From Egicoccus sp. AB-alg6-2 (GTDB lineage Bacteria; Actinomycetota; Nitriliruptoria; Nitriliruptorales; Nitriliruptoraceae): DNA of 64,000 nucleotides. Positions within the stretch are counted from its first letter, which is position 1, and each line of letters starts with the position of its first letter. Made by a program: the position numbers and the translations under genes. The stretch spans positions 62,001-126,000 of the forward strand of contig NZ_JBGUAY010000001.1 of assembly GCF_041821025.1 (NCBI RefSeq), in the 5' to 3' direction. Shown here piece after piece: positions 1-21,079 of this stretch. The notes under the pieces are model-generated. The model was not told the origin of the DNA, ran no database searches, and saw only the letters and a list, made by a program, of their open reading frames with translations.

Positions 1-348
1 GAAGAACCCGGCCGGCTTGCCGACGAGCTTGCCGTCCTGCCACAACGGGCCGGTCTGGTCCATGAAGTTCTGCAGCTGCGCCGTCTTCGAGCCGTACCGC
101 GTCGGTGAGCCGAACATGATCGCGTCGAACTCCGGCAGTTCCTCGACCGTGGCCTCGGTGACGTGCGACTGGCGTTCGATGGCGGCCGCGACGCCCTCCA
201 TCTGCTTGACCTCGTCGGGCAGCAGCGGGTCCGCCACGCGACGCAGCTCACCTTCACCGCCGGCCTTCGAGACGCCCTCGGCGAGGATGTTGGCCATCTC
301 GTAGGTCGCGCCGTACATCGAGTGGTAGACGATCCCGATCCGGGCCAT
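1..348 (-). CDS. wrbA: WrbA-type NAD(P)H:quinone oxidoreductase, C-terminus cut by window edge
   Basis: A flavodoxin-fold FMN enzyme that reduces quinones by two electrons and so avoids semiquinone radicals; it is cytosolic. The 116 visible residues show the FMN phosphate loop near residues 9-19 (HSMYGATYEMA) and the WrbA signature SPTRYGS near 81-87. This is followed by NFMDQTGPLW, all typical of the family (about 200 residues in full). The ATG is preceded by AAGGA at 8 bases. The frame stays open to base 1, so the C-terminal part lies outside. A small inverted repeat upstream (375-390) could be an operator. The family call is secure; the physiological quinone is not known. Confidence 0.9.
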   Translation of the reverse strand, partial: MARIGIVYHSMYGATYEMANILAEGVSKAGGEGELRRVADPLLPDEVKQMEGVAAAIERQSHVTEATVEELPEFDAIMFGSPTRYGSKTAQLQNFMDQTGPLWQDGKLVGKPAGFF

Positions 349-2628: not shown

Positions 2629-3357
2629 TCAGTCGCGCTTCCGTCGCAGCAGCAGCCACACGGCGGCGAGCGCGGCGAGGACGCCGACGAGCGGCAAGGC
2701 CCGCTTGAGCGTCGCACCACCGGCCACGTCGAAGAGGTCGAGCGCGTCGTCCTCCCGCGAGGGATCCTGGTCGAGTCGTCGCGTCCCACCGTCCGCGGCC
2801 GGCGCCGGGGCGGCGGCCGCGCCCACGCTGGCAGCGCCGGTCGCGGCCGCCTCGCCGCGGCCGGGAGCGGGCTCGGTCGAGGCGGAGGTGGCGGCCGCTT
2901 CGGTGGCTCCCTGCTCCTCCTGCAGCATCAGCCGCAGTCGCTCGGCGAAGCTGTCGATGATCTTCGTGCCGACCTCCTCCATGACGCCACGGCCGAACTG
3001 AGCCGGCTTGCCGGTCACGGTCAGGTCGGTCGTCACCAAGACGAGCGTGCCCTCGCCGCCCTCGCGCAGGGTGGCCACGACGTCGGCCTTCGCGGTGCCG
3101 CCGCCGCGGGCCTCCTTGCCGCTGGCCTCGATCCTGGCCCGCTTCGCCTCGGCGTCGGCTTCGACCATGCGTGCCTGCCCGCGGTAGGTCATCGAGATGG
3201 GACCGACCTTCACTTTGACACGCCCGGTGTAGACGTCGCCGTCGACCTCCTCGAGCTGTGCGCCGGGCAGGCACGGCGCCACGCGCTCGAGGTCGGTGAG
3301 GGTGGCGAAGGTGGTGTCCACGTCGGTGGGGACGCTGAACTCGTTGGTGAACTCCAC
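2629..3357 (-). CDS. coxG: CoxG-like SRPBCC protein with C-terminal membrane anchor
   Basis: CoxG proteins accompany aerobic CO-dehydrogenase-type enzymes and are thought to recruit them to the membrane. Residues 1-145 form an SRPBCC (START-like) domain with the family pattern PGAQLEEVDGDVYTGRVKVKVG-like strand, a GPISMTYRG stretch, and the TGKPAQFGRGVMEEVG helix. A low-complexity Ala/Glu-rich linker follows, then one membrane segment near 215-235 ending in RRKRD, which suggests a tail anchor with its charged end in the cytoplasm. GTG 3357 has AGGAG six bases upstream. It is the last gene of the coxSLMDEF-G run, 70 bases after xdhC. The exact role is known only for relatives. Confidence 0.85.
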   Translation of the reverse strand: MEFTNEFSVPTDVDTTFATLTDLERVAPCLPGAQLEEVDGDVYTGRVKVKVGPISMTYRGQARMVEADAEAKRARIEASGKEARGGGTAKADVVATLREGGEGTLVLVTTDLTVTGKPAQFGRGVMEEVGTKIIDSFAERLRLMLQEEQGATEAAATSASTEPAPGRGEAAATGAASVGAAAAPAPAADGGTRRLDQDPSREDDALDLFDVAGGATLKRALPLVGVLAALAAVWLLLRRKRD

Positions 3358-3427
3358 GGCGGACTCCTGGGGTGATCGTGGGGGTGGGCGGGGTGAAGGA
3401 CGATGGCGACGACGGGTGGTGTGCGGA

Positions 3428-4549
3428 TCATGCGTGGACGGGATCCACGTCGCGGTGGATGTCTCCCTCGGTCTCGCGCAGTGGGCGGCCGCTGCCGCCG
3501 TGGCGCAGCGACACGATCTCGGCCGCGATCGAGACGGCGGTCTCCTGCGGCGTGCGCGCTCCGAGGTCGAGACCGATCGGGGAGTGCAGGCGCCGCAGGT
3601 CCGCCTCGTCGACGCCGACCTCGCGCAGTCGCGCGAGACGGTCCTCGTGGGTACGGCGACTCCCCATCACGCCGATGTAGGCGGCGGGGGTGTCCAGCGC
3701 GACCTGCAGGACGGGCACGTCGAACTTCGGGTCGTGGGTCAGCACGCACACGACGGTGCGCGCATCGACCTCGGTGGCGGCGAGGTAGCGATGTGGCCAG
3801 TCGACGACGACCTCGTCGGCGTCGGGAAAGCGGAGCGCGGTCGCGAACCGGGCCCGTGCGTCGCAGACGGTGACGTGGAACCCGAGGTAGCGGCCGATGG
3901 TGGCCACCGCCGCGGCGAAGTCGATCGCGCCGAAGACGAGCATGCGGGGCCGGGGCGCGAACGACTCGACGAACACCGCCACGTCGTCCATCCGGCGCTC
4001 GCCGCGGGGGCCGACGTGACGCAGCCCGGTCTCGCCCTGCGCCAGCATCCCGCGGGCGTGCTCGACGATGGCCCGATCCAGGAAGTGCTCACCCGTTCCG
4101 CCGGTCGTGTCGGCGTCGGTCACCACCATCGCCCGGCCGACCAGGTCCGGCCGCGCGTCGTGCTCGACGATCGTGGCGACGGCGACGGGCTCGTCGGCCT
4201 CGATGCGCGCGGCGACGGCGACGAGGTCGAGATCGGACGGCGCGACCCGACGGACGAACACCTCGATGGTGCCGCCGCAGGTGAGTCCGACGGCGAACGC
4301 CTCGTCGTCGGAGATGCCATAGCGCACCCGCTGGGCGGTGCCGGAAGCCAGCACCTGCGTGGCCACCTCGACGACCGCACCTTCGACACAACCGCCCGAG
4401 ACGCTGCCGAGCACCTCGCCGTCGGGGTGCAGCGCGAGGGCCGCGCCGGGCTGGCGGGGCGCGCTGGCGCTGGTCGCGACCACGCTGGCGAGGGCGATGG
4501 TGGCGCCGTCGGCCTGCCACCGGCGCAGGACCGCGAGCTCGTCACGCAT
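3428..4549 (-). CDS. xdhC: XdhC/CoxF-family maturation factor for molybdenum hydroxylase
   Basis: XdhC-type proteins bind the molybdenum cofactor, help sulfurate it and load it into xanthine-dehydrogenase/CODH-type enzymes. The N-terminal XdhC/CoxI domain has GSVSGGCVEG (48-57) with the conserved Cys, and LTCGGTIEVFV (89-99). A Rossmann-like second domain starts near 204 (LVFGAIDFAAAVA) and continues with GVMGSRRT. The protein is 373 residues from ATG 4549, which has AAGGGG at 8 bases; an upstream in-frame ATG at 4579 lacks a site. The start overlaps the end of coxE by 8 bases, indicating translational coupling. Confidence 0.9.
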   Translation of the reverse strand: MRDELAVLRRWQADGATIALASVVATSASAPRQPGAALALHPDGEVLGSVSGGCVEGAVVEVATQVLASGTAQRVRYGISDDEAFAVGLTCGGTIEVFVRRVAPSDLDLVAVAARIEADEPVAVATIVEHDARPDLVGRAMVVTDADTTGGTGEHFLDRAIVEHARGMLAQGETGLRHVGPRGERRMDDVAVFVESFAPRPRMLVFGAIDFAAAVATIGRYLGFHVTVCDARARFATALRFPDADEVVVDWPHRYLAATEVDARTVVCVLTHDPKFDVPVLQVALDTPAAYIGVMGSRRTHEDRLARLREVGVDEADLRRLHSPIGLDLGARTPQETAVSIAAEIVSLRHGGSGRPLRETEGDIHRDVDPVHA

Positions 4550-5753
4550 CGTGCACCCCTTCCCGGTCGCCCGCCGCACCCGCCACGGTACGCGGGCCAG
4601 GCCCTTCCCGCCCTGTCGAGCGGGGGCCGGAGACGGCGGCCCCGGCGACGACCGAGGCCAGCTGTTCCAGCGACGCCAGGGAGTGCCCGGCCTGGAAGTG
4701 GTCGCAGTACGGCAGTGCCACGGCCATGCCCGCCGCGGTGGGCGCGAAGCCGGCCCGACCGGCGCGGGGATTGGCCCAGACGAGGCGGTGTGTCAACCGG
4801 GCCAGGCGCTGGACCTGCTGACCGAGCTCGGTCACGTCGCCGGTCTCCCACCCGTCGGAGAGCACGACCACCACCGCCCCACGCGCCATGCCGCGCTGAC
4901 CCCAGAGGTCGAGAAAGGCGCGCAAGGTCGGCCCCAGCCGGGTGCCCCCGGACCAGTCGGGAATCGCCGCCGACACCGCCCGCATCGCCGTGTCCGCGTC
5001 ACGGTGCGCGAGCGCGTCGGTCACGCGTGTCAGCCGGGTTCCGAGCGTGAAGACCTCGGTCGGTGCCTCGCGTCCCCGGACGGCGGCATGGGCGAACCGC
5101 AGCAGCGCGTCGGCATACCCGGCCATGGAACCGCTGACGTCGATCAGCAGGACGACACGTCGGGGCCGCGGGCGTGGACGGGTGGTGGGCAGCCGTGCCG
5201 GTTCCCCGCCGGCGGCAAGCAACCGCCGGACCGTCCGGCGCCGGTCGATCCGGCCGCGGTGCGCGCGCTGCCGGCGCCGGCTGCGACGGACCTCGCCGGC
5301 CAGGGAGAACCGGGCCAGCAGCCGCCGCAACTCGCGGCGCTCGGCCTCGGTGAGGTCGGCGACGTCGCGGTGACGCAGCGCCTCGACGGCACTGGCGTGA
5401 CGGGTGACGGTGGTCACGGACGGGGCGTCCTCCCCGACGTCACCGGCGCCGGGGACGCCCAGTGCGTCCGCGGTCACCTGGACCCGCCGGTTGGTGCGGG
5501 CACGTCCACCGACGGTGACGCCGGCGAAGTAGGCGTCGAAGACGCGGTCGTAGCGGGGCAGGTCGTCGGGGCCGGCACACAACGTGACCCGCCCGGCCCA
5601 GTAGACGTCCCGCACCCGGTCGGGTCGCACCTGCTCGAGCGCCGCGACGAAGGCCTGCACACGCCGCGGGTCGGCGTCGACCCCGGCCGCGCGCAGCGCC
5701 CGCCCGAATCCGACGGCGACGGGCGCCAACGACGGCGGGCTCACCTCAGTCAC
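4542..5753 (-). CDS. coxE: CoxE-like von Willebrand factor A domain protein
   Basis: Works with the MoxR/CoxD ATPase in late maturation of CODH-type enzymes (metal-cluster or cofactor assembly in relatives). The 403-residue protein has an Arg-rich N-terminal half and a C-terminal VWA domain whose MIDAS motif DVSGSM lies at 205-210 after a hydrophobic strand (RVVLLI). This matches the CoxE/MadC family. GTG 5753 is chosen: it overlaps the coxD stop by 8 bases, a spacing repeated at the next junction. A second GTG at 5744 is also possible. The tail overlaps xdhC by 8 bases. Confidence 0.87.
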   Translation of the reverse strand: MTEVSPPSLAPVAVGFGRALRAAGVDADPRRVQAFVAALEQVRPDRVRDVYWAGRVTLCAGPDDLPRYDRVFDAYFAGVTVGGRARTNRRVQVTADALGVPGAGDVGEDAPSVTTVTRHASAVEALRHRDVADLTEAERRELRRLLARFSLAGEVRRSRRRQRAHRGRIDRRRTVRRLLAAGGEPARLPTTRPRPRPRRVVLLIDVSGSMAGYADALLRFAHAAVRGREAPTEVFTLGTRLTRVTDALAHRDADTAMRAVSAAIPDWSGGTRLGPTLRAFLDLWGQRGMARGAVVVVLSDGWETGDVTELGQQVQRLARLTHRLVWANPRAGRAGFAPTAAGMAVALPYCDHFQAGHSLASLEQLASVVAGAAVSGPRSTGREGPGPRTVAGAAGDREGVHDA

Positions 5754-6708
5754 CGGCGACGGCGCGCGCGACGAGTCCGGCGACGTCCAGTGCACGCGCC
5801 CGCTCCTGGTCCTCACGGAACTTGAGCACCGACCCGAGCGTCGCCACCGCCAGGTCGGCATCGAGGTGGTCGGCACCGAGCGCCACCAGCGCCTGGGTCC
5901 AGTCGAGGGTCTCGGCCACACCGGGGACCTTCAGCAGGTCCTGCCCACGGAGGTTCTGCACGGCCGACACGACCTCCCTGGCGAGCCGCTCGGAAACGCC
6001 CGGCAACCGGGTACGGACGATCTCGACCTCGCGCGCGAAACCGGGATGGTCGAGCCAGTGGTAGTAGCAGCGGCGCTTGAGTGCGTCGTGGACCTCGCGG
6101 GTGCGGTTCGAGGTCAACACCACCACCGGGGGTGTCGCCGCCCGGATCGTGCCGAGCTCGGGCACGCTGATCGTGAAGTCGCTCAGGACCTCCAGCAGCA
6201 GGGCTTCGAACTCGTCGTCGGCCCGGTCGACCTCGTCGATGAGCAGCACGACCGGGTCGGTCTCCAGCGCCTGCAGCAGTGGTCGTGCCACCAGGAACCG
6301 GCGGTCGTACAGCTCGCCTTCGAGTACGTGCTCGTCGCGCCGCCCTCCCGCGGCCTCGGCGGCACGCAGGTGCAGGATCTGGGCCGGGAAGTTCCAGTCG
6401 TACAGGGCCTGGGCGGCGTCGATGCCCTCGTAGCACTGCAGCCGCAGCAGCGGAGCCTGCAGGACCGCGGCCAACGCGGCCGCCGTGGCGGTCTTGCCGA
6501 CACCGGCGTCGCCCTCCAGCAGCAGCGGCCGTCGCAGCACGCACGTCAGGTACGCCGCCGTCGCCAGCCCGGGGTCGGCGAGATAGCCCACCTGCGCCAG
6601 TCGTTCGGCGAGCGACCCCGGATCGGTGACGTCGACCGGCAGGCGGCCGCCGGGAGCGGCCGATGCCGCCCCCGGCGCGCCCGCTTCGGCGTGGTCGTCC
6701 TCGCTCAA
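5746..6708 (-). CDS. coxD: MoxR/CoxD-type AAA+ ATPase
   Basis: An AAA+ chaperone-like ATPase that partners a VWA protein (here CoxE) to activate the neighbouring molybdenum hydroxylase. The 320 residues show Walker A GDAGVGKT (66-73), Walker B VVLLIDEVDRAD (153-164) and a sensor-1-like VVLTSN. The N-terminus is an acidic, low-complexity 25 residues. It overlaps the coxM end by 4 bases (ATGA type) and coxE by 8, so the cox genes form one translation-coupled unit. Confidence 0.93.
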   Translation of the reverse strand: MSEDDHAEAGAPGAASAAPGGRLPVDVTDPGSLAERLAQVGYLADPGLATAAYLTCVLRRPLLLEGDAGVGKTATAAALAAVLQAPLLRLQCYEGIDAAQALYDWNFPAQILHLRAAEAAGGRRDEHVLEGELYDRRFLVARPLLQALETDPVVLLIDEVDRADDEFEALLLEVLSDFTISVPELGTIRAATPPVVVLTSNRTREVHDALKRRCYYHWLDHPGFAREVEIVRTRLPGVSERLAREVVSAVQNLRGQDLLKVPGVAETLDWTQALVALGADHLDADLAVATLGSVLKFREDQERARALDVAGLVARAVAGD

Positions 6709-7556
6709 GAGGCGGCGGCTTCCAGCGCCCGTCGGGTCAGGACCCGTGCGAGGTGCTCCCGGTAGGCCGGTGAGGCGTTGAGGTCCGCCGAGGGCGAGGT
6801 GCCCTCGGCGGCGGACTCCGCCGCACGACGGATCGCGTCCGTCCCGGCGCCGGCCAGTGCCTGCTCGACCGCACGCGCCCGCACCGGCACGGTCGCCATG
6901 TTGGTCAGCCCGACGCGCGCCTCGCCGACGTGGCCGTCGTCGCGACGGACGATCGCGACCGATCCGACGATGGCCCAGGCCTGCGAGACCCGGACGAACT
7001 TCTCGTACCGCCAGCCCCAGGCGCCGTCGAGGCGCGGAAACCGCACCTCGGTCAGCACCTCGGCGTCCTCGAGCGCGGTGTCGAGGTAGTCGACGAAGAA
7101 GTCGGCGGCCGCCACCTCGCGCTGGCCGCCGGGGCCCTGGCAGACGAACGTGGCGTCGAGCGCCAGTGCCGTGGCGGGCAGGTCGCCGGCGGCGTCACCG
7201 TGCGCGAGTGCGCCACCGATCGTGCCGCGGTGGCGAACCTGTGCGTCACCGACCATGGCCGTGACGTGCGCCAGCACGCCGCAGTGCTGCTGGACGAGGG
7301 GGTCATCGATGACGTCCTGGTGCCGGGTCATCGCGCCGATCGCCAGCCGGCCGTCGTCGGTCTCGCGCACGCCGCGCAGCGCCTCGACGCGGCCGAGGTC
7401 GACCAGCACCTCGGGCGCCGCCAGCCGCAGTTTCATCAGCGGCAGCAGGCTGTGCCCGCCAGCGATCAGCTTGGCTTCGTCGCCATGCTCGGCCAGCACC
7501 GACACGGCGTGGTCGACCGATTCGGCCCGGACGTAGTCGAAGGTCGCCGGGATCAT
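6705..7556 (-). CDS. coxM: FAD-binding medium subunit of CODH-type molybdenum hydroxylase
   Basis: Passes electrons from the [2Fe-2S] small subunit to FAD and then to a quinone or other acceptor. The 283-residue protein has both FAD motifs of the family: IAGGHSLLP (31-39) and TIGGALAHGD (112-121), followed by the CO-dehydrogenase flavoprotein C-terminal domain. ATG 7556 is preferred because it overlaps the coxL stop by 4 bases; an upstream in-frame start would sit deep in coxL. Position third in the operon (S-L-M order) is the layout typical of form II loci. Confidence 0.95.
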   Translation of the reverse strand: MIPATFDYVRAESVDHAVSVLAEHGDEAKLIAGGHSLLPLMKLRLAAPEVLVDLGRVEALRGVRETDDGRLAIGAMTRHQDVIDDPLVQQHCGVLAHVTAMVGDAQVRHRGTIGGALAHGDAAGDLPATALALDATFVCQGPGGQREVAAADFFVDYLDTALEDAEVLTEVRFPRLDGAWGWRYEKFVRVSQAWAIVGSVAIVRRDDGHVGEARVGLTNMATVPVRARAVEQALAGAGTDAIRRAAESAAEGTSPSADLNASPAYREHLARVLTRRALEAAAS

Positions 7557-9946
7557 GCCGCACCCCCGTCGGTCGCACCGGATGCTCGCTGCAGCGCTTC
7601 CCACACGTTCCTCGGTGACGCTGGGAGCCGGACGTCGTTGATCCCGAACGGTCGGAGCGCGTCGACGACGGCGTTCATCACCGCGGGCGTCGAGGCGATC
7701 GTGCCGGCCTCGCCCACCCCCTTGACGCCCAGCGGGTTGGTCGTCGCCGGCGTCTCCGTGCGGTCGGTGCGGAAGGTGGGCAGATCGGCGGCGGACGGGA
7801 CGTAGTAGTCCACGAGCGAGCCGGTCAGCAGGTTGCCCTCGTCGTCGTGGATCGCCTCCTCGAACAGGGCCTGCGCGATGCCCTGCGCCAACCCGCCGTG
7901 GACCTGCCCCTCGACGATCTGGGGGTTGATGACGCGGCCGACGTCGTCCACGGACACGTAGTCGCGCAGATGGACGTGGCCGGTCTCGGTGTCCACCTCG
8001 ACCGCGGCCAGGTGCGTGCCGTGCGGGTAGGAGAAGTTCTCGGGGTCGACGGTCGCGTCCGAGTCCAGGGAGGGTTCCATGTCGTCGGGGTAGTCATGGG
8101 CCGCGAACACCGCCAGCGCGACGTCCTGGATCGTCTTCGATGCGTCCGGGGACCCGCGGACCGCGAACGTGCCCCGGTCGAACTCGAGATCGTCCTCGCT
8201 GGCCTCGAGCAGGTGTGCCGCGACCCGTTTCGCCTTGGCCACCACCTTGTCGCAGGCGACCTGCACGGCATAACCACCGACGACCAGCGAGCGCGAGCCG
8301 TAGGTGTCCATGCCCTTGTGGGCGACGGCCGTGTCGCCGTGACGGACCTCGACGTCCTCGTAGGGCACCCCGAGCGCCTGGGCGGCGATCTGTGACCACG
8401 CCGTGACGTGTCCCTGACCGTGGGGCGAGGTACCGGTCACCACCTCGACCTTGCCCGACGGCAGCATGCGCACGCTGGCGTACTCCCACCCACCGGCGCC
8501 GTACGACAGCGAGCCGAGGACGCGCGACGGGGCCAGACCACACATCTCCGTGAAGGTGGAGATGCCGATGCCGAGCTGGACCGGGTCGTTCGCCTCGCGA
8601 CGACGGGTCTGCTCGGCCCGCAGCTCGTCGTAGGCGAACAACTCCTTGGCCTTCGCGGTCGCGGCCTCGTAGTTGCCCGAGTCGTAGGTGATCCCGGCGA
8701 TCGTCTCGTAGGGAAACTCCTCGTGCCGGATCCAGTTGCGCTCGCGCAGCTCGAACGGCTCCATGCCGAGCTCGTTGGCCGCCTCGTCGATCAGCCGCTC
8801 GATCGCGTAGGTCGCCTCCGGCCGGCCGGCACCGCGGTAGGCATCGGTCGGCGTCTTGTTGGTGAAGACGCCGGTGCACGTGAACGACAGCGCGTCCATC
8901 TTGTAGATCGCGTTGAACATGAACGCACCGAGCAGCGGTACGCCGGGGGTGACCAGCTGCAGGTAGGCGCCCATGTCGGCCAACAGCTTCACCTTCAGGC
9001 CCCGGATGCGACCGTCGGCATCCAACGCCAGCGACAGGTCCTGGATCTGGTCGCGACCGTGGATGGTGGCCTGATAGCCCTCCGTGCGCGACTCGGTCCA
9101 CTTCACCGGCTGGTCGAGCAGCTTCGCGAGCACGAGGCAGATCGCTTCCTCGGCGTAGACGTTGAGCTTCGACCCGAAGCCGCCGCCGACGTCGGGCGCG
9201 ATGACCCGCAACTCGTGCTCGGGAACGCCACAGGTGAGCGCGAGCATCAGCCGCAGGATGTGGGGCACCTGCGTGGCCGACCACATCGTGTACTCCCGCT
9301 GGTCGCGGGGCGGGGCACAGACCACGGCCCGCGGCTCGATCGCCGTCGGGATGAGGCGCTGGTTGACGAAGCGACGGGACACGACGTGGGCGGCGCCGTC
9401 GAACGCGGCGTCGATGTCGCCGTTGACCATCGGCCACGTGAAGCACTCGTTGGCATCCAGCGAGGTGTCGGCGAGGTCGGCGCCATCGGCGAGCGCCGCC
9501 TCCATGTCGGTCACCACCGGGAGCGGGTCGTACTCGACGTCGACGAACTCGGTGGCGTCCGCAGCCTCGTAGCGGCTGCGTGCCACGACCACCGCGACCG
9601 CGTCCCCGACGTAGCGGACCTCGTCGGTCGCGATCGGCAGGTGGACGGGCGCACGCATGTCCTCGGTCACCGGCCAGGCGCACGGCAGGCCGCCGGCCCA
9701 GTGCTCCTGCAGTTCGGCGCCGGTGTAGGCCGCGACGACGCCGGGCTGCTCCAGCGCGGCGGAGACGTCCACCCGGGTGACCCGGGCGTGCGCCATCGGC
9801 GAGCGGACGACGGCGACGTGCAGCATGCCGGGCAGTTGGACGTTGTCGGTCCAACGGGTGCGGCCGGTGACGAGGTGGGCATCCTCCTTGCGCAGCTTCG
9901 TGACGCCGACGACGGCGTCCGCTGGAGGCGTCTCGAGCGTGGTCAC
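7553..9946 (-). CDS. coxL: Form II CoxL-like molybdenum hydroxylase large subunit
   Basis: Catalytic subunit that holds the molybdopterin cofactor and hydroxylates or oxidizes a small substrate. The protein has 797 residues, normal for CoxL. Visible features are the Gln-containing SATQVPH near 224-230, APDVGGGFGSK near 250-260, the active-site loop AYRGAGR at 369-375 (bases 8822-8842) and the catalytic Glu motif GVGEAGT near the C-terminus. Proven CO dehydrogenases (form I) have a loop with Cys (AYxCSFR) binding the Mo-Cu cluster. Here the Cys is replaced by Gly, which defines form II, whose substrates are mostly unproven. GTG 9946 overlaps the coxS stop by 4 bases. CO oxidation is not supported by the loop sequence. 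Confidence 0.95.
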   Translation of the reverse strand: MTTLETPPADAVVGVTKLRKEDAHLVTGRTRWTDNVQLPGMLHVAVVRSPMAHARVTRVDVSAALEQPGVVAAYTGAELQEHWAGGLPCAWPVTEDMRAPVHLPIATDEVRYVGDAVAVVVARSRYEAADATEFVDVEYDPLPVVTDMEAALADGADLADTSLDANECFTWPMVNGDIDAAFDGAAHVVSRRFVNQRLIPTAIEPRAVVCAPPRDQREYTMWSATQVPHILRLMLALTCGVPEHELRVIAPDVGGGFGSKLNVYAEEAICLVLAKLLDQPVKWTESRTEGYQATIHGRDQIQDLSLALDADGRIRGLKVKLLADMGAYLQLVTPGVPLLGAFMFNAIYKMDALSFTCTGVFTNKTPTDAYRGAGRPEATYAIERLIDEAANELGMEPFELRERNWIRHEEFPYETIAGITYDSGNYEAATAKAKELFAYDELRAEQTRRREANDPVQLGIGISTFTEMCGLAPSRVLGSLSYGAGGWEYASVRMLPSGKVEVVTGTSPHGQGHVTAWSQIAAQALGVPYEDVEVRHGDTAVAHKGMDTYGSRSLVVGGYAVQVACDKVVAKAKRVAAHLLEASEDDLEFDRGTFAVRGSPDASKTIQDVALAVFAAHDYPDDMEPSLDSDATVDPENFSYPHGTHLAAVEVDTETGHVHLRDYVSVDDVGRVINPQIVEGQVHGGLAQGIAQALFEEAIHDDEGNLLTGSLVDYYVPSAADLPTFRTDRTETPATTNPLGVKGVGEAGTIASTPAVMNAVVDALRPFGINDVRLPASPRNVWEALQRASGATDGGAA

Positions 9947-10530
9947 GGCGCCACCTCCAGGTTCTCGAGCTGTTCGACGTGGTCGGGGTCGGACACCACG
10001 TCGGCCTCGCCGACCGTCCCCTCGTCGGGGTCGGGCATCGGCTCGCCGCGCAGTTCGGCAGCGGCGCGCAACACCGAACGGACGATGTTGACGTAGCCGG
10101 TGCAGCGGCACAGGTTGCCCTCGAGACCGTGCCGCACCTCCTCTTCGGTGGGGTCGGGGTTGCGTTCGAGCAGGTCGATCGACGACATGATCATGCCCGG
10201 GGTGCAGTAGCCACACTGCAGCCCGTGCTCGGTGTGGAACGCCTTCTGCAGCGGGTGCCACCCGCTGGTCGCGTCACCGTCGGCGGGCGGCTGCGCCAGT
10301 CCCTCGATGGTGCGCACCTCGGCGCCGTCGGCCTGCACGGCCAGGATCGTGCAGCTCTTGACCGACTGACCGTCGAGGTGGACGGTGCAGGCGCCGCAGT
10401 TGGACGTGTCGCAGCCGATGTTGGTGCCGGTCCGGCCCAGCACGTCGCGCAGGTAGTGGACCAGCAGCAGCCTCGGCTCGACGTCGTCGTCGTGCGTGGC
10501 GCCGTCCACCTTTATCTGGACTCTGGTCAT
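9943..10530 (-). CDS. coxS: [2Fe-2S] small subunit of CODH-type molybdenum hydroxylase
   Basis: Carries two [2Fe-2S] clusters that take electrons from the Mo site to FAD. The plant-ferredoxin-type domain has Cys40, Cys45, Cys48 and Cys60; the second, helical domain has Cys106, Cys109, Cys141 and Cys143 (CGYCTPG and CRCTGY). At 195 residues it is about 30 longer than usual, owing to an acidic tail rich in Asp/Glu. ATG 10530 follows GGGAGGG. First gene of the operon, with a promoter candidate about 130 bases upstream. Confidence 0.96.
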
Positions 10531-11938: not shown

Positions 11939-12192
11939 CGTGGTCCGTCCTTGCGAGCTTCAGATGCCGGCGTGGACTCCGGGACGGATCCCCGCCGGTT
12001 GCCTCGTGGAGCGCCGACATGCCGCCTTCCCGACCGTGCCAAGTTCACGACGTCGTGGCCCTCGCCCGCGAGGCGGCTAGCCGCGGTTCTCGGGCTGAGG
12101 AACACCACATTCCTGGCATGGTGATCAGGTGTTGTTCTGCCCATCATTACCAGACCGCCCGCAGCGGAGCGGGCTGCCACGAGGAGGACACC

Positions 12193-15733: not shown

Positions 15734-15794
15734 GGCCGAACGGTACCCCTCGCGGCAGGCAGTAGCCTCGGTCGCGGACGAGGGAGGGCGTGCC

Positions 15795-16490
15795 GTGGAG
15801 GTCGAGGTGCGGCTGTTCGGCGGTCTCGCGGAGCACGCCGGGGGCGCCAGGACACGGGTCGAGGTGGCCGACGACGCGACCGTCGCGGACCTGCGACCGG
15901 CACTGGCCGCGAAGCACCCGGCGCTGGCGCCGTTGCTGGCGCGGGTGAACGTCGCGGTCGACCTCGAGGTCGCTGGCGAGGACCGCTCGCTGGCCGGGGC
16001 GCGCGAGGTGGCCGTCTTGCCGCCGGTGGCGGGCGGGGCAGCGACCGACGACGTCCGCGTGGTCACCGGGCTGCGCCGGCCTCCCCTACCGGTCGAGGCA
16101 ACCATCGAGGCGGTCAGCACCCCCGATGTCGGGGCGACGGCGGTCTTCCTCGGCAGCGTGCGCGACCACGCCGGCGACCTCGACGACGTCGTGCGCCTCG
16201 ACTACTCGGCCTACGACGAGATGGCCGAGCGGATGCTGTCCGACCTGGCCGCCGAGATCGCCACCGACCATCCGCAGGTCCGCGGCATCGCCCTGCTGCA
16301 CAGCACCGGCGAGCTGCCGGTGGGTGCCCACACCATCCTGGTGGTGTGTACCGCGCCACACCGCGCCGAGGCCTTCTCCGCCTGCGAGGACGCCCTGGAA
16401 CGGGTCAAGGACCGGCTGCCCGTGTGGAAACGGGAGGTGACCGCCGACGGGGCCCACCGCTGGGTCGGCCTGCCACCGACCGGCGACTGA
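15795..16490 (+). CDS. moaX: MoaX: MoaD-MoaE fusion (molybdopterin synthase)
   Basis: Both molybdopterin synthase subunits in one chain of 231 residues. Residues 1-81 are a MoaD ubiquitin-like domain ending in PPVAGG (Gly80-Gly81). Residues 82-231 are MoaE, with the two active-site lysines in RVKDRLPVWKREV (Lys205 and Lys212). MoaD needs a free C-terminal Gly-Gly thiocarboxylate, so the fusion must be cut after Gly81, as known for mycobacterial MoaX. GTG 15795 follows GAGGGAGGG. Its stop is one base from the converging modC stop. Confidence 0.93.
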   Translation: MEVEVRLFGGLAEHAGGARTRVEVADDATVADLRPALAAKHPALAPLLARVNVAVDLEVAGEDRSLAGAREVAVLPPVAGGAATDDVRVVTGLRRPPLPVEATIEAVSTPDVGATAVFLGSVRDHAGDLDDVVRLDYSAYDEMAERMLSDLAAEIATDHPQVRGIALLHSTGELPVGAHTILVVCTAPHRAEAFSACEDALERVKDRLPVWKREVTADGAHRWVGLPPTGD

Positions 16491-16491
16491 G

Positions 16492-17181
16492 TCAGCCGCC
16501 CGGACGTCGCAGGCGTTCGGTGACCTCCGCCACACCCGAGATGTCGGTGATCCGGCCGGGCTCGGCCAGCAGCACCTGATCGGCGAGCACCGCCAGTTCG
16601 TCGGGATCGTGGGTCACGAACAGCGCCGGGATGCCGGTCTCGTCGACGAGGTCACGGACGAGCCGCCGCAGTCGGTGCCGCCGCTGCAGGTCGAGTGCGT
16701 TGAACGGCTCGTCGAGCAGCAGCAGGCGGGGGGCTCCCGCCAAGGCGCGGGCGAGGGCGACCCGCTGCTGTTGGCCGCCCGAGAGCGTGTGCGGACGGCG
16801 ATCGGCGAACGGTGCCGCGCCGGTGCGCTCGAGCCAGTCGGTGGCGATGCGCCGGCGCTGCTCGCGCGTCCCGCTGGCCGCGGCGAGGGCGACGTTGGCC
16901 AGCACCGTGCGGTGCGGCAACAGGTAGGCCTGCTGGAAGACCATGCCGATGCGACGACGGTGCACGGGCAACCGGTGGCCCGCGACGGTGTCGACGAAGC
17001 CGACGCCATCGAGGCTGATGCGTCCCGCGACGGGGTCGTCCAGTCCGGCGATCAGCCGCAGCAGCCGGGTCTTGCCAGCGCCGGACGGCCCGAACAGCAC
17101 CGTGAGGCCGGGGGGGAGCGCAAAGTCGGCGTGGAGTTCGAAGTCGCCGACCCGGGCGCGGACGTCGACCTCGAGGCTCAC
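16492..17181 (-). CDS. modC: Molybdate ABC transporter ATPase, short form
   Basis: Energises molybdate uptake through ModB. The 229 residues contain Walker A GPSGAGKT (31-38), signature LSGGQQQR (133-140) and Walker B LLLLDEPF (153-160), with a His in the switch (TH) after it. Standard ModC is about 350 residues and ends in a molybdate-binding TOBE/Mop domain that gives feedback inhibition; that domain is absent here. GTG 17181 overlaps the modB stop by 4 bases. Confidence 0.9.
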   Translation of the reverse strand: MSLEVDVRARVGDFELHADFALPPGLTVLFGPSGAGKTRLLRLIAGLDDPVAGRISLDGVGFVDTVAGHRLPVHRRRIGMVFQQAYLLPHRTVLANVALAAASGTREQRRRIATDWLERTGAAPFADRRPHTLSGGQQQRVALARALAGAPRLLLLDEPFNALDLQRRHRLRRLVRDLVDETGIPALFVTHDPDELAVLADQVLLAEPGRITDISGVAEVTERLRRPGG

Positions 17182-17834
17182 AGTGCCGCCCGCTCGAGCC
17201 GGCGGACCAGCAGCAGGATCGCCACCGCAACGGCCGAGAGCACCCCCGCGAGCACTCCGGCGGTGGCGTAGTCGAACGCCTGCACCCGGTCGTAGACCGC
17301 GATCGGCATGGTCTGGGTCCGGCCGGGGATGTTGCCCGCCACCAGCAGCGTGGTGCCGAAGTCGCCGAGCGCACGCGCGAACGCGAGCGAGATCCCGGCC
17401 ACGATGCCGCGTCCGGCCAGCGGCAGGGTCACCATGAACGCCAACCGCCGCCCGTGCAGCCCGGCGACGCGTGCGGCCTCCTCGTAGCCGCGGTCGACCG
17501 CGGCGATGGCGGCGGTCGCCGTCCGCAGGCAGTACGGCAGGCTGGCGATGGTCGCGGCGATCACCGCCGCCTGCCACGTGAAGACCAGCGGAAAGCCCGT
17601 GACGGCCTCCCAGGCGCGCCCGATCGGTGAAGTGCGTCCGATCGTGACCAGCAGGTAGTAGCCCAGAACGGTGGGTGGCAGCACGATCGGCAGGCTCGCG
17701 ACCGCCTCGACCAAGCCGTGGCCGGGGAACCGCCACCGCGCCAGGGCGTAGGCGCCGGCGACCCCGATGATGGTGGTGAACAGCGTCGCGAGGACGGCGA
17801 CACGCAACGACAGCAGCAGTGGGAACCAGTCCAC
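17178..17834 (-). CDS. modB: Molybdate ABC transporter permease
   Basis: Membrane channel of the molybdate importer: 218 residues, about five to six hydrophobic segments. The cytoplasmic EAA loop is recognisable as EEAARVAGLHGRRLAFMVTLPLA-like sequence (approximately 118-140), and the conserved AFARALGDFGTTLLVAGNIPGRT follows. The start lies 2 bases after the modA stop, and its stop overlaps modC, so modA-modB-modC are tightly coupled. Tungstate could also be carried by such a system. Confidence 0.94.
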   Translation of the reverse strand: MDWFPLLLSLRVAVLATLFTTIIGVAGAYALARWRFPGHGLVEAVASLPIVLPPTVLGYYLLVTIGRTSPIGRAWEAVTGFPLVFTWQAAVIAATIASLPYCLRTATAAIAAVDRGYEEAARVAGLHGRRLAFMVTLPLAGRGIVAGISLAFARALGDFGTTLLVAGNIPGRTQTMPIAVYDRVQAFDYATAGVLAGVLSAVAVAILLLVRRLERAAL

Positions 17835-17836
17835 GA

Positions 17837-18697
17837 TCAGTGGTCGCCCATGGCGTCCGGGCCTTCCGCGCCCGACCCGCCCTCGTCCGGGGTCGTCTCG
17901 CCGGGCAACGACAACCCGAACCTGCGCATCACCGCCCGCCCCTGTTCGCCGTTGACGAACGCGGCGAACCGCGCCGCCCGTCGCGCCCGATCCGGGTCGG
18001 ACGCGACGATCAGCAGGTCCTGCTGCAACGGCTCGTGGAGTCCCGCGTCGACCGCCTGCCAGTCCCCCTCACCGGCCTCGTCGGCCGCCAGGGCGAGCGA
18101 GAGCGCCACGATCGCGACGTCGGCGTTGCCGGTGGCGGCCAGGCGCTGGGCGTCGGACACGTTCTCGCCATGGACCAGCTTCGGCCCGATGCGGTCGAGC
18201 ACGCCCGCAGACTCCAGCGCCTGCCGGGCGGCGAGTCCGTACGGCGCATGCTCGGGGTTGGCGATGGCCACGGTGCGGATGCGATCGTCGGCCGCCAACT
18301 CCTCGAGGTCGTCCCATTCGCGCCACCTCGCCGCCGGGGACCACATCGCGAGGCGCCCGTGGGCATAGGTCGCCTGCGTCGCCGCGTCCCCGACCCCGGC
18401 CTCGAGCACCCGCTCGACGTAAGCGACGCTGGCCGACGCGAACAGGTCCATCGGCGCACCCTCGATGATCTGCTGCGCCAACTGCCCCGACGAACCGAAG
18501 TTGAACACGACCCGCTCGCCGGCCTCGGCCTCGAATGCCGCCCCGAGCTCCGCGAATGCCGGACGCAGGTCGGACGCCGCAGCCACCAGCAGCGGGTCGT
18601 CGGTGGCCGCGCCAGCGCCCCCACCCGAGCACCCCACCACGCCGAGCACGCCGATGGCGAGCAGCAGGCACACGGGCCGAAACCGGACGGGCCCCAT
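17837..18697 (-). CDS. modA: Molybdate-binding lipoprotein of ABC transporter
   Basis: Captures molybdate outside the membrane and hands it to ModB. The 286-residue precursor has a lipobox VVGC with Cys23, then a Gly/Ala linker and a type-II periplasmic binding fold: LLVAAASDLRPAF at the mature start, NFGSSGQLAQQI, and the WxAVDAGL region. The start ATG directly abuts the stop of the upstream regulator gene (TGAATG). The C-terminal tail is acidic. Confidence 0.95.
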   Translation of the reverse strand: MGPVRFRPVCLLLAIGVLGVVGCSGGGAGAATDDPLLVAAASDLRPAFAELGAAFEAEAGERVVFNFGSSGQLAQQIIEGAPMDLFASASVAYVERVLEAGVGDAATQATYAHGRLAMWSPAARWREWDDLEELAADDRIRTVAIANPEHAPYGLAARQALESAGVLDRIGPKLVHGENVSDAQRLAATGNADVAIVALSLALAADEAGEGDWQAVDAGLHEPLQQDLLIVASDPDRARRAARFAAFVNGEQGRAVMRRFGLSLPGETTPDEGGSGAEGPDAMGDH

Positions 18698-19708
18698 TCA
18701 GGCCGCCTCGAGGGCGTAGCCCGGTAGGATCGCCAGACGCCGACGCAGCCGCGCCGACGCCAGCAGTTCACCGAGCGCGACGGCGCCGGGGTGGTCCGCG
18801 GAGCGGGCGTCGATCCAGACCTCGACCCGGTGGGTCTCGAGCGCGTGGAAGACCATGCCAGCGGCCAGCGCCACGGGCTCGATGGTGACCGCGGCGATCC
18901 CGCCGACGCTCGCCTGCCTGGCCGCATCGAGGTGCCCCGTCGCCAACGGCCCGTCGGGGCAGGGCCGCCCCTCCGCGAGCAGGGCCCGCTCGTAGGCCGC
19001 CTGCGCCGCTGCGCCGGCGTCACGCTGCACCACGGGACCCTCTCCGGCGACTGCCGCGGCCAGCGCGGCCTCGGCGCCCTGCGGTACGGCAAGACCGGTT
19101 CGCCACGCCGCCAGGGGCAGGCGGTGGACGCTGGTGGGGTGCTGCGGTCCGGCCACCTGGACATCGTGGACGACCGCGGCGTGGGCACGACCGGTGACGA
19201 GCGCGAGCCTGGCCGCCGAGGACGACGCGAGGACCGGCACGATACGGCCGTTGCCGCGTTCCGGGCCGAGTGCCGCGACGATGCCGAGTGACGGGTCGCA
19301 GCCGGCGACGAGGAAGCCGTCGGTGTCCGCGCCGGGCAACAGTGCGACCCGCCTGTCGTCGATGACCGCGTCCGGTGCCGACCACACCTCGCCGTCGTCG
19401 GTGCCCGGTGTCGGGATGCAGACGTGGTGATCACCGACCTGGACGACCCGGACGGCCTGGCCGTCGGCGAGGGCGTCGCCGAGCACGTGCAGTGCCCGCG
19501 GGGGTCCGACGGCCAGCAGGTCCTCGACGGTCGTGCCAAGCACGCCGGCCAGGGCGACGGCGGCGTCGACCCGCGGCAGGTGCCGGCCGGCCTCGAGGGT
19601 GCCCAGCGCCTGGCGGCTGATGCCGGCCCGGTCAGCCAGCTCGGCCTGGCTCAGGCCGAGGGCACGGCGCATGCGCCGCACGCGCTGCCCGATCGCCGCC
19701 GGATCCAT
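18698..19708 (-). CDS. XRE-type HTH regulator with PBP-like ligand domain (probable molybdate sensor)
   Basis: A one-component regulator that likely reads molybdate or molybdenum cofactor status. Residues 5-65 form an XRE helix-turn-helix (LGLSQAELADRAGISRQALG). From about 110 to 336 there is a substrate-binding-protein-like domain (PBP_like family), with patterns such as DAAVALAGVLGTTVEDLL before it and AAAVAGEGPVVQRDAGAAAQ within. The family is commonly encoded next to molybdate transport genes in actinobacteria and replaces ModE. ATG 19708 has AGGAG at 5 bases. First gene of the mod operon, with the stop fused to the modA start. The ligand is inferred from context. Confidence 0.85.
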   Translation of the reverse strand: MDPAAIGQRVRRMRRALGLSQAELADRAGISRQALGTLEAGRHLPRVDAAVALAGVLGTTVEDLLAVGPPRALHVLGDALADGQAVRVVQVGDHHVCIPTPGTDDGEVWSAPDAVIDDRRVALLPGADTDGFLVAGCDPSLGIVAALGPERGNGRIVPVLASSSAARLALVTGRAHAAVVHDVQVAGPQHPTSVHRLPLAAWRTGLAVPQGAEAALAAAVAGEGPVVQRDAGAAAQAAYERALLAEGRPCPDGPLATGHLDAARQASVGGIAAVTIEPVALAAGMVFHALETHRVEVWIDARSADHPGAVALGELLASARLRRRLAILPGYALEAA

Positions 19709-19719
19709 GCCGCTCCTGC

Positions 19720-19743
19720 GTGACGCCCACTTCCTGGCGTCAC
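19720..19743. promoter_or_regulatory. Inverted repeat just upstream of the mod regulator gene
   Basis: GTGACGCC-N8-GGCGTCAC, perfect 8-base arms, begins 12 bases upstream of the ATG at 19708. A third GGCGTCA half-site occurs at 19776-19782. Placement over the transcript start or ribosome site fits an autoregulatory operator for the XRE-PBP regulator. This is inference from symmetry and position. Confidence 0.5.
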
Positions 19744-19758
19744 TATGCCAGATAACTA

Positions 19759-19778
19759 GCCGGCCTGTACAGGCCGGC
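19759..19778. promoter_or_regulatory. Perfect 20-base palindrome between mod operon and SLH gene
   Basis: A fully symmetrical 20-base sequence (core GCCTGTACAGGC) lies midway between the divergent mod operon and the SLH-transpeptidase gene. It could be a second operator, or a cruciform/terminator-like element insulating the two directions. It overlaps no gene. Confidence 0.5.
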
Positions 19779-19858
19779 GTCAGGACCAGCCCCGCCGAGC
19801 GGACGGGGTGGTGATCGTTCGGGTCCGTACGGTGGGAACAATCGATCTCGGAGCCTCC

Positions 19859-21079
19859 ATGCCACGTCGCACCACCTTCACGCTGCTCGCGATGGTCCTG
19901 GCCGTCCTGCTGCCCGCCCTGCCGGCGGCCGCGCAGACCGGGGACTTCGACGACGTGTCGGGGGTGCACGCGGAGGCGATCGCGGCGATCAGCGACGCGG
20001 GCATCACCGAAGGGTGCACCGCGGACCGCTACTGCCCGCAGGAGCTGGTGCGCCGCGACCAGATGGCCTCGTTCCTCGCCCGCGCCCTCGGCCTGGACAC
20101 GTCCGGGACCACGAGCTTCGCCGACGTCCCGGCCGGCAACCCGCACAGCGGCGCCATCGCGGCCATCCACGCGGAGGGCATCACGACCGGCTGTGAGGAC
20201 GGCCGCTACTGCCCGTCGGCTCCCGTGCAACGCCAGGAGATGGCCAGCTTCCTCGCCCGCGCGTTCGACCTCCAAGCGACGGACACGACCTGGTTCCACG
20301 ACATCGGGGGGACGCACGGCGACGCGGCCCAGCGCCTGGGCGCGGCCGGCGTGAGCGGCGGCTGCGACGACCTGGGCCTGCAATACTGCCCGACCGAGGA
20401 CGTCCGTCGAGACCAGATGGCCTCGTTCATCGGCCGCGCGCTCGAACTGGTGCCCGGTACCGAGATCGCCCTGCTTCTCGAGCCGGGCGACAGCGGGCCG
20501 ACCGTCACCGCGCTGCAGAAGTACCTCACCGCCAACGACTACTGGGTCGGACCGGTGGACGGCGTCTACGGCAACCTGACCGAGCAGGCCGTCCTCGCGG
20601 CCCAGAAGGTCCACGGGCTGGCCCGGGACGGGATCTACGGTCCGCTCACCCGCGGCGCGCTCGCGGCGCCGCGGACACCGGCGACGCGGAGCACTTGGGG
20701 CTACGTGGTCGAGTTCGACGAGGACCGCCAGATCGTCATGCTCGTTGAGGACGGGGTCCCCGGGATGATTTTCCACGCCTCCGGCGGGGACGAGAGCTAC
20801 TACACCCACGAGGGCACCGAGTACTGGGCAGAGACGCCCAACGGCGACTGGCACATCTACCGCGAGATCAACGACTGGCGCACCTCGCACCTCGGCGAGC
20901 TGTACCGGCCCAAGTACTTCCACACCGACGGCATCGCGTTCCACGGCTACGACGTCGTGCCTGCCCAGGCCGCGTCACACGGCTGCGTGCGCGTCAGCAT
21001 CGAGGCGATGGACTGGATCTGGGCCAACGACGCCATGCCGATCGGCACCGACGTCCTGGTCTACGGCGACCCGAACTGA
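19859..21079 (+). CDS. Secreted SLH-repeat, peptidoglycan-binding, L,D-transpeptidase protein
   Basis: A cell-wall enzyme that likely cross-links peptidoglycan. The 406 residues show a signal peptide (about 1-25, ending AAAQ), then three SLH-like repeats of about 50 residues, each with the pattern GC..(R)YCP and a QMASFL/EMASFL helix. A peptidoglycan-binding helix bundle follows (GPTVTALQKYL...GVYGNLTEQAVLAAQ), then a YkuD domain with His362 and the catalytic motif SHGCVR (Cys376). The paired Cys in each repeat may form disulfides. ATG 19859 precedes the signal peptide; an earlier in-frame start would spoil it. It stands alone between two operons. Confidence 0.9.
   Translation: MPRRTTFTLLAMVLAVLLPALPAAAQTGDFDDVSGVHAEAIAAISDAGITEGCTADRYCPQELVRRDQMASFLARALGLDTSGTTSFADVPAGNPHSGAIAAIHAEGITTGCEDGRYCPSAPVQRQEMASFLARAFDLQATDTTWFHDIGGTHGDAAQRLGAAGVSGGCDDLGLQYCPTEDVRRDQMASFIGRALELVPGTEIALLLEPGDSGPTVTALQKYLTANDYWVGPVDGVYGNLTEQAVLAAQKVHGLARDGIYGPLTRGALAAPRTPATRSTWGYVVEFDEDRQIVMLVEDGVPGMIFHASGGDESYYTHEGTEYWAETPNGDWHIYREINDWRTSHLGELYRPKYFHTDGIAFHGYDVVPAQAASHGCVRVSIEAMDWIWANDAMPIGTDVLVYGDPN

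Follow-up and report, generated by a model that had tools for sequence, protein, structure and literature searches.

A candidate tandem operator upstream of a probable XRE-type, PBP-like regulator of modABC in Egicoccus sp. AB-alg6-2 and related loci

The regulator-modABC operon and its proteins

Analysis of a 64,000-nucleotide stretch of the Egicoccus sp. AB-alg6-2 genome (here called the window) revealed a minus-strand operon in which a regulator gene precedes modA, modB and modC (Table 1). The regulator stop codon directly abuts the modA start codon, modA and modB are separated by 2 bases, and the start of modC overlaps the stop of modB by 4 bases. An earlier note on this DNA had placed the regulator at the head of the operon and described a TGAATG junction with modA, which is indeed exact (TGA and ATG at 18698/18697). 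It had also described ModC as lacking its own molybdate-sensing domain, in agreement with a domain scan that found ATPase-type domains and no TOBE domain in this protein.

Table 1. Features of the regulator-modABC locus and of its surroundings in the window
Feature	Position	Strand	Remarks
CO-dehydrogenase-type molybdoenzyme cluster	2629-10261	minus	CoxG, XdhC/CoxI, AAA ATPase, FAD subunit, Moco subunit
Fusion protein of a ThiS-family (MoaD-like) and a MoaE domain	15762-16487	plus	divergent from moaA
modC, ATPase	16492..17181	minus	TIGR02142, 3e-63 over positions 1-222 of 353, below cut-off
modB, permease	17178..17834	minus	TIGR02141, 7.4e-66, above cut-off
modA, molybdate-binding protein	17837..18697	minus	TIGR01256, 5.7e-57, above cut-off
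Regulator ORF	18698..19708	minus	336 aa, ATG at 19708
XRE (Cro/CI) helix-turn-helix of regulator	residues ~6-66		HTH_3, 4.4e-13, above cut-off
C-terminal periplasmic-binding-protein-like domain of regulator	residues ~129-334		from fold and relatives
Inverted repeat GTGACGCC-N8-GGCGTCAC	19720..19743		exactly the same centre as O2; no conservation of the outer bases
O2, weaker predicted operator CGCCCACTTCCTGGCG	19724..19739		-16 to -31 from ATG; 5.8 bits
O1, main predicted operator, imperfect 16-bp palindrome TGCCAGATAACTAGCC (minus strand GGCTAGTTATCTGGCA)	19746..19761		-38 to -53 from ATG
Perfect 20-bp palindrome GCCGGCCTGTACAGGCCGGC	19759..19778		absent from other upstream regions; motif score nowhere above 0
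SLH/PG_binding/YkuD (L,D-transpeptidase) gene	19859-21079	plus	between purD and regulator in the window

The N-terminal part of the regulator was assigned to the HTH_3 family in the domain-family scan, and in the predicted structure (mean pLDDT of 87) residues 2 to 68 resembled the helix-turn-helix (HTH) of the P22 c2 repressor (Z = 13.2, 28% identity), in line with the XRE-type HTH proposed in the earlier note. The C-terminal domain of the predicted model has a ModA-like fold: upon structure comparison of residues 129 to 334, ModA structures headed the list (Z = 16.5 over 198 residues, root mean square deviation of 3.5). The comparison does not by itself single out molybdate as the ligand, since a phosphate-binding protein was tied with ModA (Z = 16.0) and LysR effector domains followed at Z values of 13 to 14. 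At the sequence level, regulators and ModA proteins showed no significant similarity when their profiles were compared (probability of 0.4%, E = 0.14), the C-terminal 213 residues retrieved nothing credible from the PDB in a sequence search, and the matches listed in a profile search were nearly all HTH proteins. HTH_3 and HTH_31 were found in all 18 aligned regulator proteins and PF12727 (PBP_like) in 17 of them, the sole exception being the regulator of the window itself; the alignment (A1) excluded L022, whose first codon is a stop, as well as L023 to L025, which are incomplete. The PBP-like nature claimed earlier finds support in the fold and in the relatives, but not in a PF12727 match of the protein itself.

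A conserved tandem palindrome upstream of the regulator gene

Related loci were collected from two sources. A search of 61 genomes, including that of the window, gave 19 near-full-length matches, and a scan of a species genome collection gave 79 loci from the best 80 of 197 matches, of which 76 were used (L070, L103 and L112 had no usable N terminus or an HTH-only match). Six loci from the 61-genome search (L001, L006, L007, L008, L011 and L018) were added, yielding 82 loci in total; L018 duplicates L051 and was dropped from the count of tandem pairs. Start codons of the relatives were estimated from the alignment, several probably being misplaced, and the promoters of L065 and L080 have an exact 20-mer in common. 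The 23 distant loci were set apart post hoc, after the upstream regions had been viewed. In the 82 upstream regions, whose main source was the best 80 of the 197 matches, the word GCCAGGA was over-represented (24 loci versus 4.3 in shuffles), as were TCTGGCA (16 versus 2.4) and ATTCTGT (11 versus 0.8).

A 16-bp palindromic motif was trained by expectation-maximization on 54 upstream regions, with the window, its four closest relatives and the 23 distant loci left out. The learned motif reads TGCCAG-gATc-CTGGCA; out of 250 random starts, the top 12 without exception converged on TGCCAGgATcCTGGCA, with an estimated use in 91% of the 54 regions. The gain in log likelihood was 288.5, compared to 22.7 to 26.3 in four shuffled sets (60 starts each, with fewer iterations). 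In the first scan with this motif, sites of at least 10 bits were present in 52 of all 82 upstream regions (mainly from the best 80 of 197 matches); in the separate count of tandem pairs, 56 of the 58 close loci had such a site, compared to 1.02 in shuffles.

When the window, which had been held out of the training, was scanned with this motif, the site here named O1 ranked first among 63,985 positions with 14.5 bits, although its outer arm carries mismatches. Positions as good as O1 were expected 0.13 times per shuffled window in 30 shuffles and 0.12 times in 100 shuffles. The next matches in the window, at 12103, 60138 and 60779, reached 10.4 to 11.2 bits and were rejected as further sites: four positions of at least 10.3 bits, O1 included, compare with 2.2 in shuffles. 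The weaker site O2 starts 22 bp from the start of O1, and apart from these two no tandem pair was present in the 64 kb.

The tandem arrangement is conserved. Secondary sites cluster 19 to 22 bp from the best site and almost nowhere else, and pairs with this spacing occurred in 47 of the 58 close loci, including the window, versus 0.07 in shuffles (loci taken mostly from the best 80 of 197 matches); the other 11 had no tandem pair. A spacing of 20 bp was most frequent (27 pairs), followed by 19 (11), 21 (5) and 22 bp (4), and five other classes of four offsets each yielded 0, 1, 1, 0 and 1 pairs in the same 58 loci. The four nearest relatives, which were not part of the training set, carry a second copy at 21 or 22 bp. 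The bases between the paired sites vary, while the spacing stays locked to about two helical turns. With regard to the promoter, a -10-like TANNNT hexamer occupies positions 4 to 9 of the downstream copy in 34 of the 47 pairs and of the upstream copy in 5. Neither copy in the window has TANNNT at these positions; a -10 candidate, CATAGT at 19742-19747 on the minus strand, was picked by eye only.

The tandem operator was absent from the promoters of 22 of the 23 distant loci. The one distant locus with a promoter pair, L110 from a metagenome-assembled genome (MAG) labelled Bacillota, has a weak pair of 15.4 bits at 4893-4929. In other distant homologues (L089, L091, L092, L093 and L109, from Thermomicrobium and others), another upstream motif, roughly TTACTATCC...GAAAGTAAA, seems to be present as judged by eye; it may serve as operator in the classical PBP_like branch.

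The regulator is linked to molybdate transporter genes well beyond the window. Genes resembling mod adjoin it in 72 of the 82 loci (best 80 of 197 matches as the main source), lying downstream in 60 cases and divergently in 12; five other loci have such genes elsewhere and five show none. Adjacency was called by a loose tblastn search, so that some of the modB and modC hits may stem from other ABC transporters. Out of 62 neighboring frames, 50 were scanned, cut-off frames and distant loci being left out; 43 of these matched ModA and 4 matched permease models. At L047, where the order is modABC-regulator, a pair of 28.7 bits precedes modA and the region upstream of the regulator has no site. 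Across 742,899 bp, no more than two pairs were located elsewhere than at such promoters. Two ModABC subtypes appear in combination with the regulator and its operator, since ModA is only 28 to 31% identical to that of the window in the same-genus loci L034 and L006 and the same-genus locus L007 has a TIGR01581-type permease, whereas ModA of L008, from the same family, is 59% identical. Behind the same regulator in L034, L006 and L007, the transporter thus appears to have been exchanged in place.

The palindromes noticed earlier and the extent of control

The earlier note had pointed to two other palindromes at this promoter, and both exist exactly as described: the inverted repeat GTGACGCC-N8-GGCGTCAC, separated from the regulator ATG by 11 bases (19709-19719), and the perfect 20-mer. 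No other perfect inverted repeat in the window combines arms of 8 bases or more with an 8-base spacer. By itself the former is only mildly unusual, because perfect repeats with such arms and any spacer from 0 to 12 number 62 in the 64 kb, about one per 1,000 bases. The 20-mer is one of two perfect palindromes of at least 20 bp in the window.

As conserved control elements, the two did not stand up. Among 81 other upstream regions, a single one contained the arms of the inverted repeat (versus 1.3 in shuffles) and none contained the 20-mer core, both in loci mostly from the best 80 of 197 matches, and both palindromes are absent from same-genus relatives whose regulators are 77 to 85% identical. 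Conservation at homologous operons was one of the tests that the earlier note itself had set; the 20-mer failed it, and the conserved O1 between the two palindromes had been missed. The inverted repeat survives in part, solely because it shares its center (19731.5) with O2, the weaker of the two conserved operators; the GTGA/TCAC bases at its outer ends are peculiar to this genome. At L034 (identical in place to L005) and L007, both from the same genus, purD ends 74 to 95 bases before the regulator, while in the window the SLH/PG_binding/YkuD gene intervenes; judging from this arrangement, the 20-mer probably belongs to a stretch gained together with that gene. At L006 and L008, the search for purD gave no match.

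Other known means of molybdate control were searched for in the window and in the genome. TOBE/Mop (PF03459) had no match in the genome, whose assembly is rated 98.4% complete, while the control was positive in 12 of 14 genomes. The ModE HTH (TIGR00637) had no match in the genome either, although the control was weak here, with just 2 of 14 control genomes scoring over the cut-off of the model. Within the promoter, the best match to an Escherichia coli-type ModE box agreed with the consensus at 10 of 20 positions, and the best in the whole window at 11, consistent with the earlier statement that no such box is seen. No molybdenum cofactor (Moco) riboswitch reached the gathering threshold in the window, and the promoter region had no Rfam match. 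Since neither ModE nor a TOBE domain was found in the genome, molybdate control may well rest mainly on this regulator; the earlier note had suggested that it may do so wholly.

The earlier note had also proposed a search for the same repeats upstream of cox and moa genes in related genomes. Within the window, the best score of the learned motif in the moaA-moaDE intergenic region was -2.1 bits, and the cox-type cluster holds three single matches of 5.4 to 7.0 bits that rank within the top 20 of the window, none of them paired. Two pattern searches of the genome gave no excess of sites elsewhere, and a genome-wide regulon was therefore rejected: TGMCAGNATNCTGKCA with up to two mismatches had 12 forward sites versus 15 for the control pattern, and GCYAGNWWNCTGGCA occurred exactly only at the window site, in addition to six one-mismatch rows (7 in total versus 23 for the control). 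The other candidates from these searches lie in stretches that contain open frames of more than 300 codons, although such frames mean little where GC content is high; in the case of L119 and L121, the open-frame check used another, better-scoring position. Control hence appears to be local to the regulator-modABC operon.

A proposed repressor and its relation to known systems

We consider it most likely that the regulator is an autoregulatory repressor of the regulator-modABC operon that responds to molybdate (or tungstate) and acts as two dimers on O1 and O2, with the oxyanion as corepressor. The constant association of the sites with the regulator points to this protein as their binder, and the fold, the gene neighbors and the analogy to ModE and TaoR suggest molybdate as ligand and corepressor. 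A dimer of the XRE HTH would recognize the 16-bp palindrome TGCCAG-N4-CTGGCA and its variants. As the palindromes lie about 20 bp apart, two dimers would occupy O1 and O2 as neighbors on the same face of the DNA, at a distance of about two helical turns and possibly in a cooperative manner, and would cover the core promoter; binding at the -10-like hexamer of the downstream copy would block it. With cytoplasmic oxyanion filling the ModA-like C-terminal domain, the repressor would bind and uptake would stop, while under molybdate scarcity both regulator and transporter would be made. Because the regulator is encoded within its own operon, this would amount to negative feedback.

Other readings of the data are less probable. 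The regulator might activate modABC in its apo form when molybdate is scarce; the upstream copies mostly lack a -10-like element, so that contact between RNA polymerase and one of the bound dimers is conceivable, but the frequent position of the downstream copy on the -10-like hexamer is that of a repressor, which makes activation unlikely. We regard it as equally unlikely that the ligand is another oxyanion (sulfate, phosphate or selenate) or a Moco intermediate instead of molybdate or tungstate. The tie between ModA and phosphate-binding structures and the insignificant profile match to ModA would be compatible with such a ligand, yet the neighboring transporters look predominantly like ModA types, also at the same-genus loci with the other ModABC subtype.

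Very unlikely is an assignment of the two palindromes noticed earlier as operators of the regulator, perhaps for two states or two partners. Their exactness, the rarity of the 20-mer and the center shared by the first repeat and O2 speak for it, and are outweighed by their absence from nearly all other upstream regions, close relatives included, and by the probable gain of the 20-mer with the neighbor gene. Finally, the conserved block could be an RNA element made of leader hairpins, as the palindromes could pair in RNA. This is hardly credible given a spacing locked to helical turns across variable intervening bases and the lack of an Rfam match here; moreover, many pairs overlap the -10-like hexamer, in which case at least the upstream copy would not be transcribed.

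The repressor thus proposed combines traits of several known systems. TaoR (Rajeev et al. 2019, Environ Microbiol 21:784) is reported to repress tupABC when tungsten is plentiful and to have an excisionase-like DNA-binding domain. TaoR-like proteins have an N-terminal HTH (helix-turn-helix-17) and a C-terminal PBP-like sensor (PMC11980592), and TaoR is linked to tungstate uptake (PMC10102598). The regulator shares the overall plan of HTH plus C-terminal PBP-like sensor, and differs in having a Cro/CI-type HTH_3 in place of the excisionase-like HTH_17, which was not among the 23 families listed. ModE is a single regulator that controls modABC in a molybdate-dependent manner (PMC545781), a role that the regulator would share. 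Its architecture is another, however, and the regulator is not ModE: it was examined for the three defining features, and neither a ModE-type HTH nor TOBE nor a ModE box was found here.

The CI repressors of lambda, P22 and 434 bind paired palindromic operators near a promoter and carry a LexA-type peptidase domain. The regulator resembles them in its DNA-binding fold (P22 c2) and in the paired palindromes near the promoter, whereas its sensor domain is ModA-like in the predicted model. Closest are the HTH_3 plus PBP_like (PF12727) proteins, which have the same domain order; all six distant loci scanned showed HTH_3 together with a strong PF12727 match. An association with molybdate/tungstate transporter genes was found both in the window, with modABC, and across the related loci, and the subfamily of the window stands apart by its diverged PBP_like domain and its own tandem operator. 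The regulator is therefore best filed as a diverged subfamily of HTH_3 plus PBP-like oxyanion regulators with a tandem operator. No description of this operator was found in the open-license PMC literature, and an earlier description elsewhere is possible.

Taken further, the data favor, with more reserve than the repressor model itself, a separate subfamily of molybdate repressors that takes the place of ModE in several actinobacterial groups (as well as in a small number of MAGs with the labels Chloroflexi, Myxococcota and Deltaproteobacteria). It would read a previously undescribed tandem operator via two dimers two helical turns apart and would have kept control through the exchange of ModABC subtypes. 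The genome encodes a CO-dehydrogenase-type molybdoenzyme cluster, yet no ModE or TOBE was found in it. With a concrete operator and a sensor-repressor candidate at hand, molybdate control becomes directly testable in this organism and its relatives. The clean two-turn spacing may offer a simple system for cooperative repressor binding, and the motif can aid the annotation of molybdate operons in uncultured lineages.
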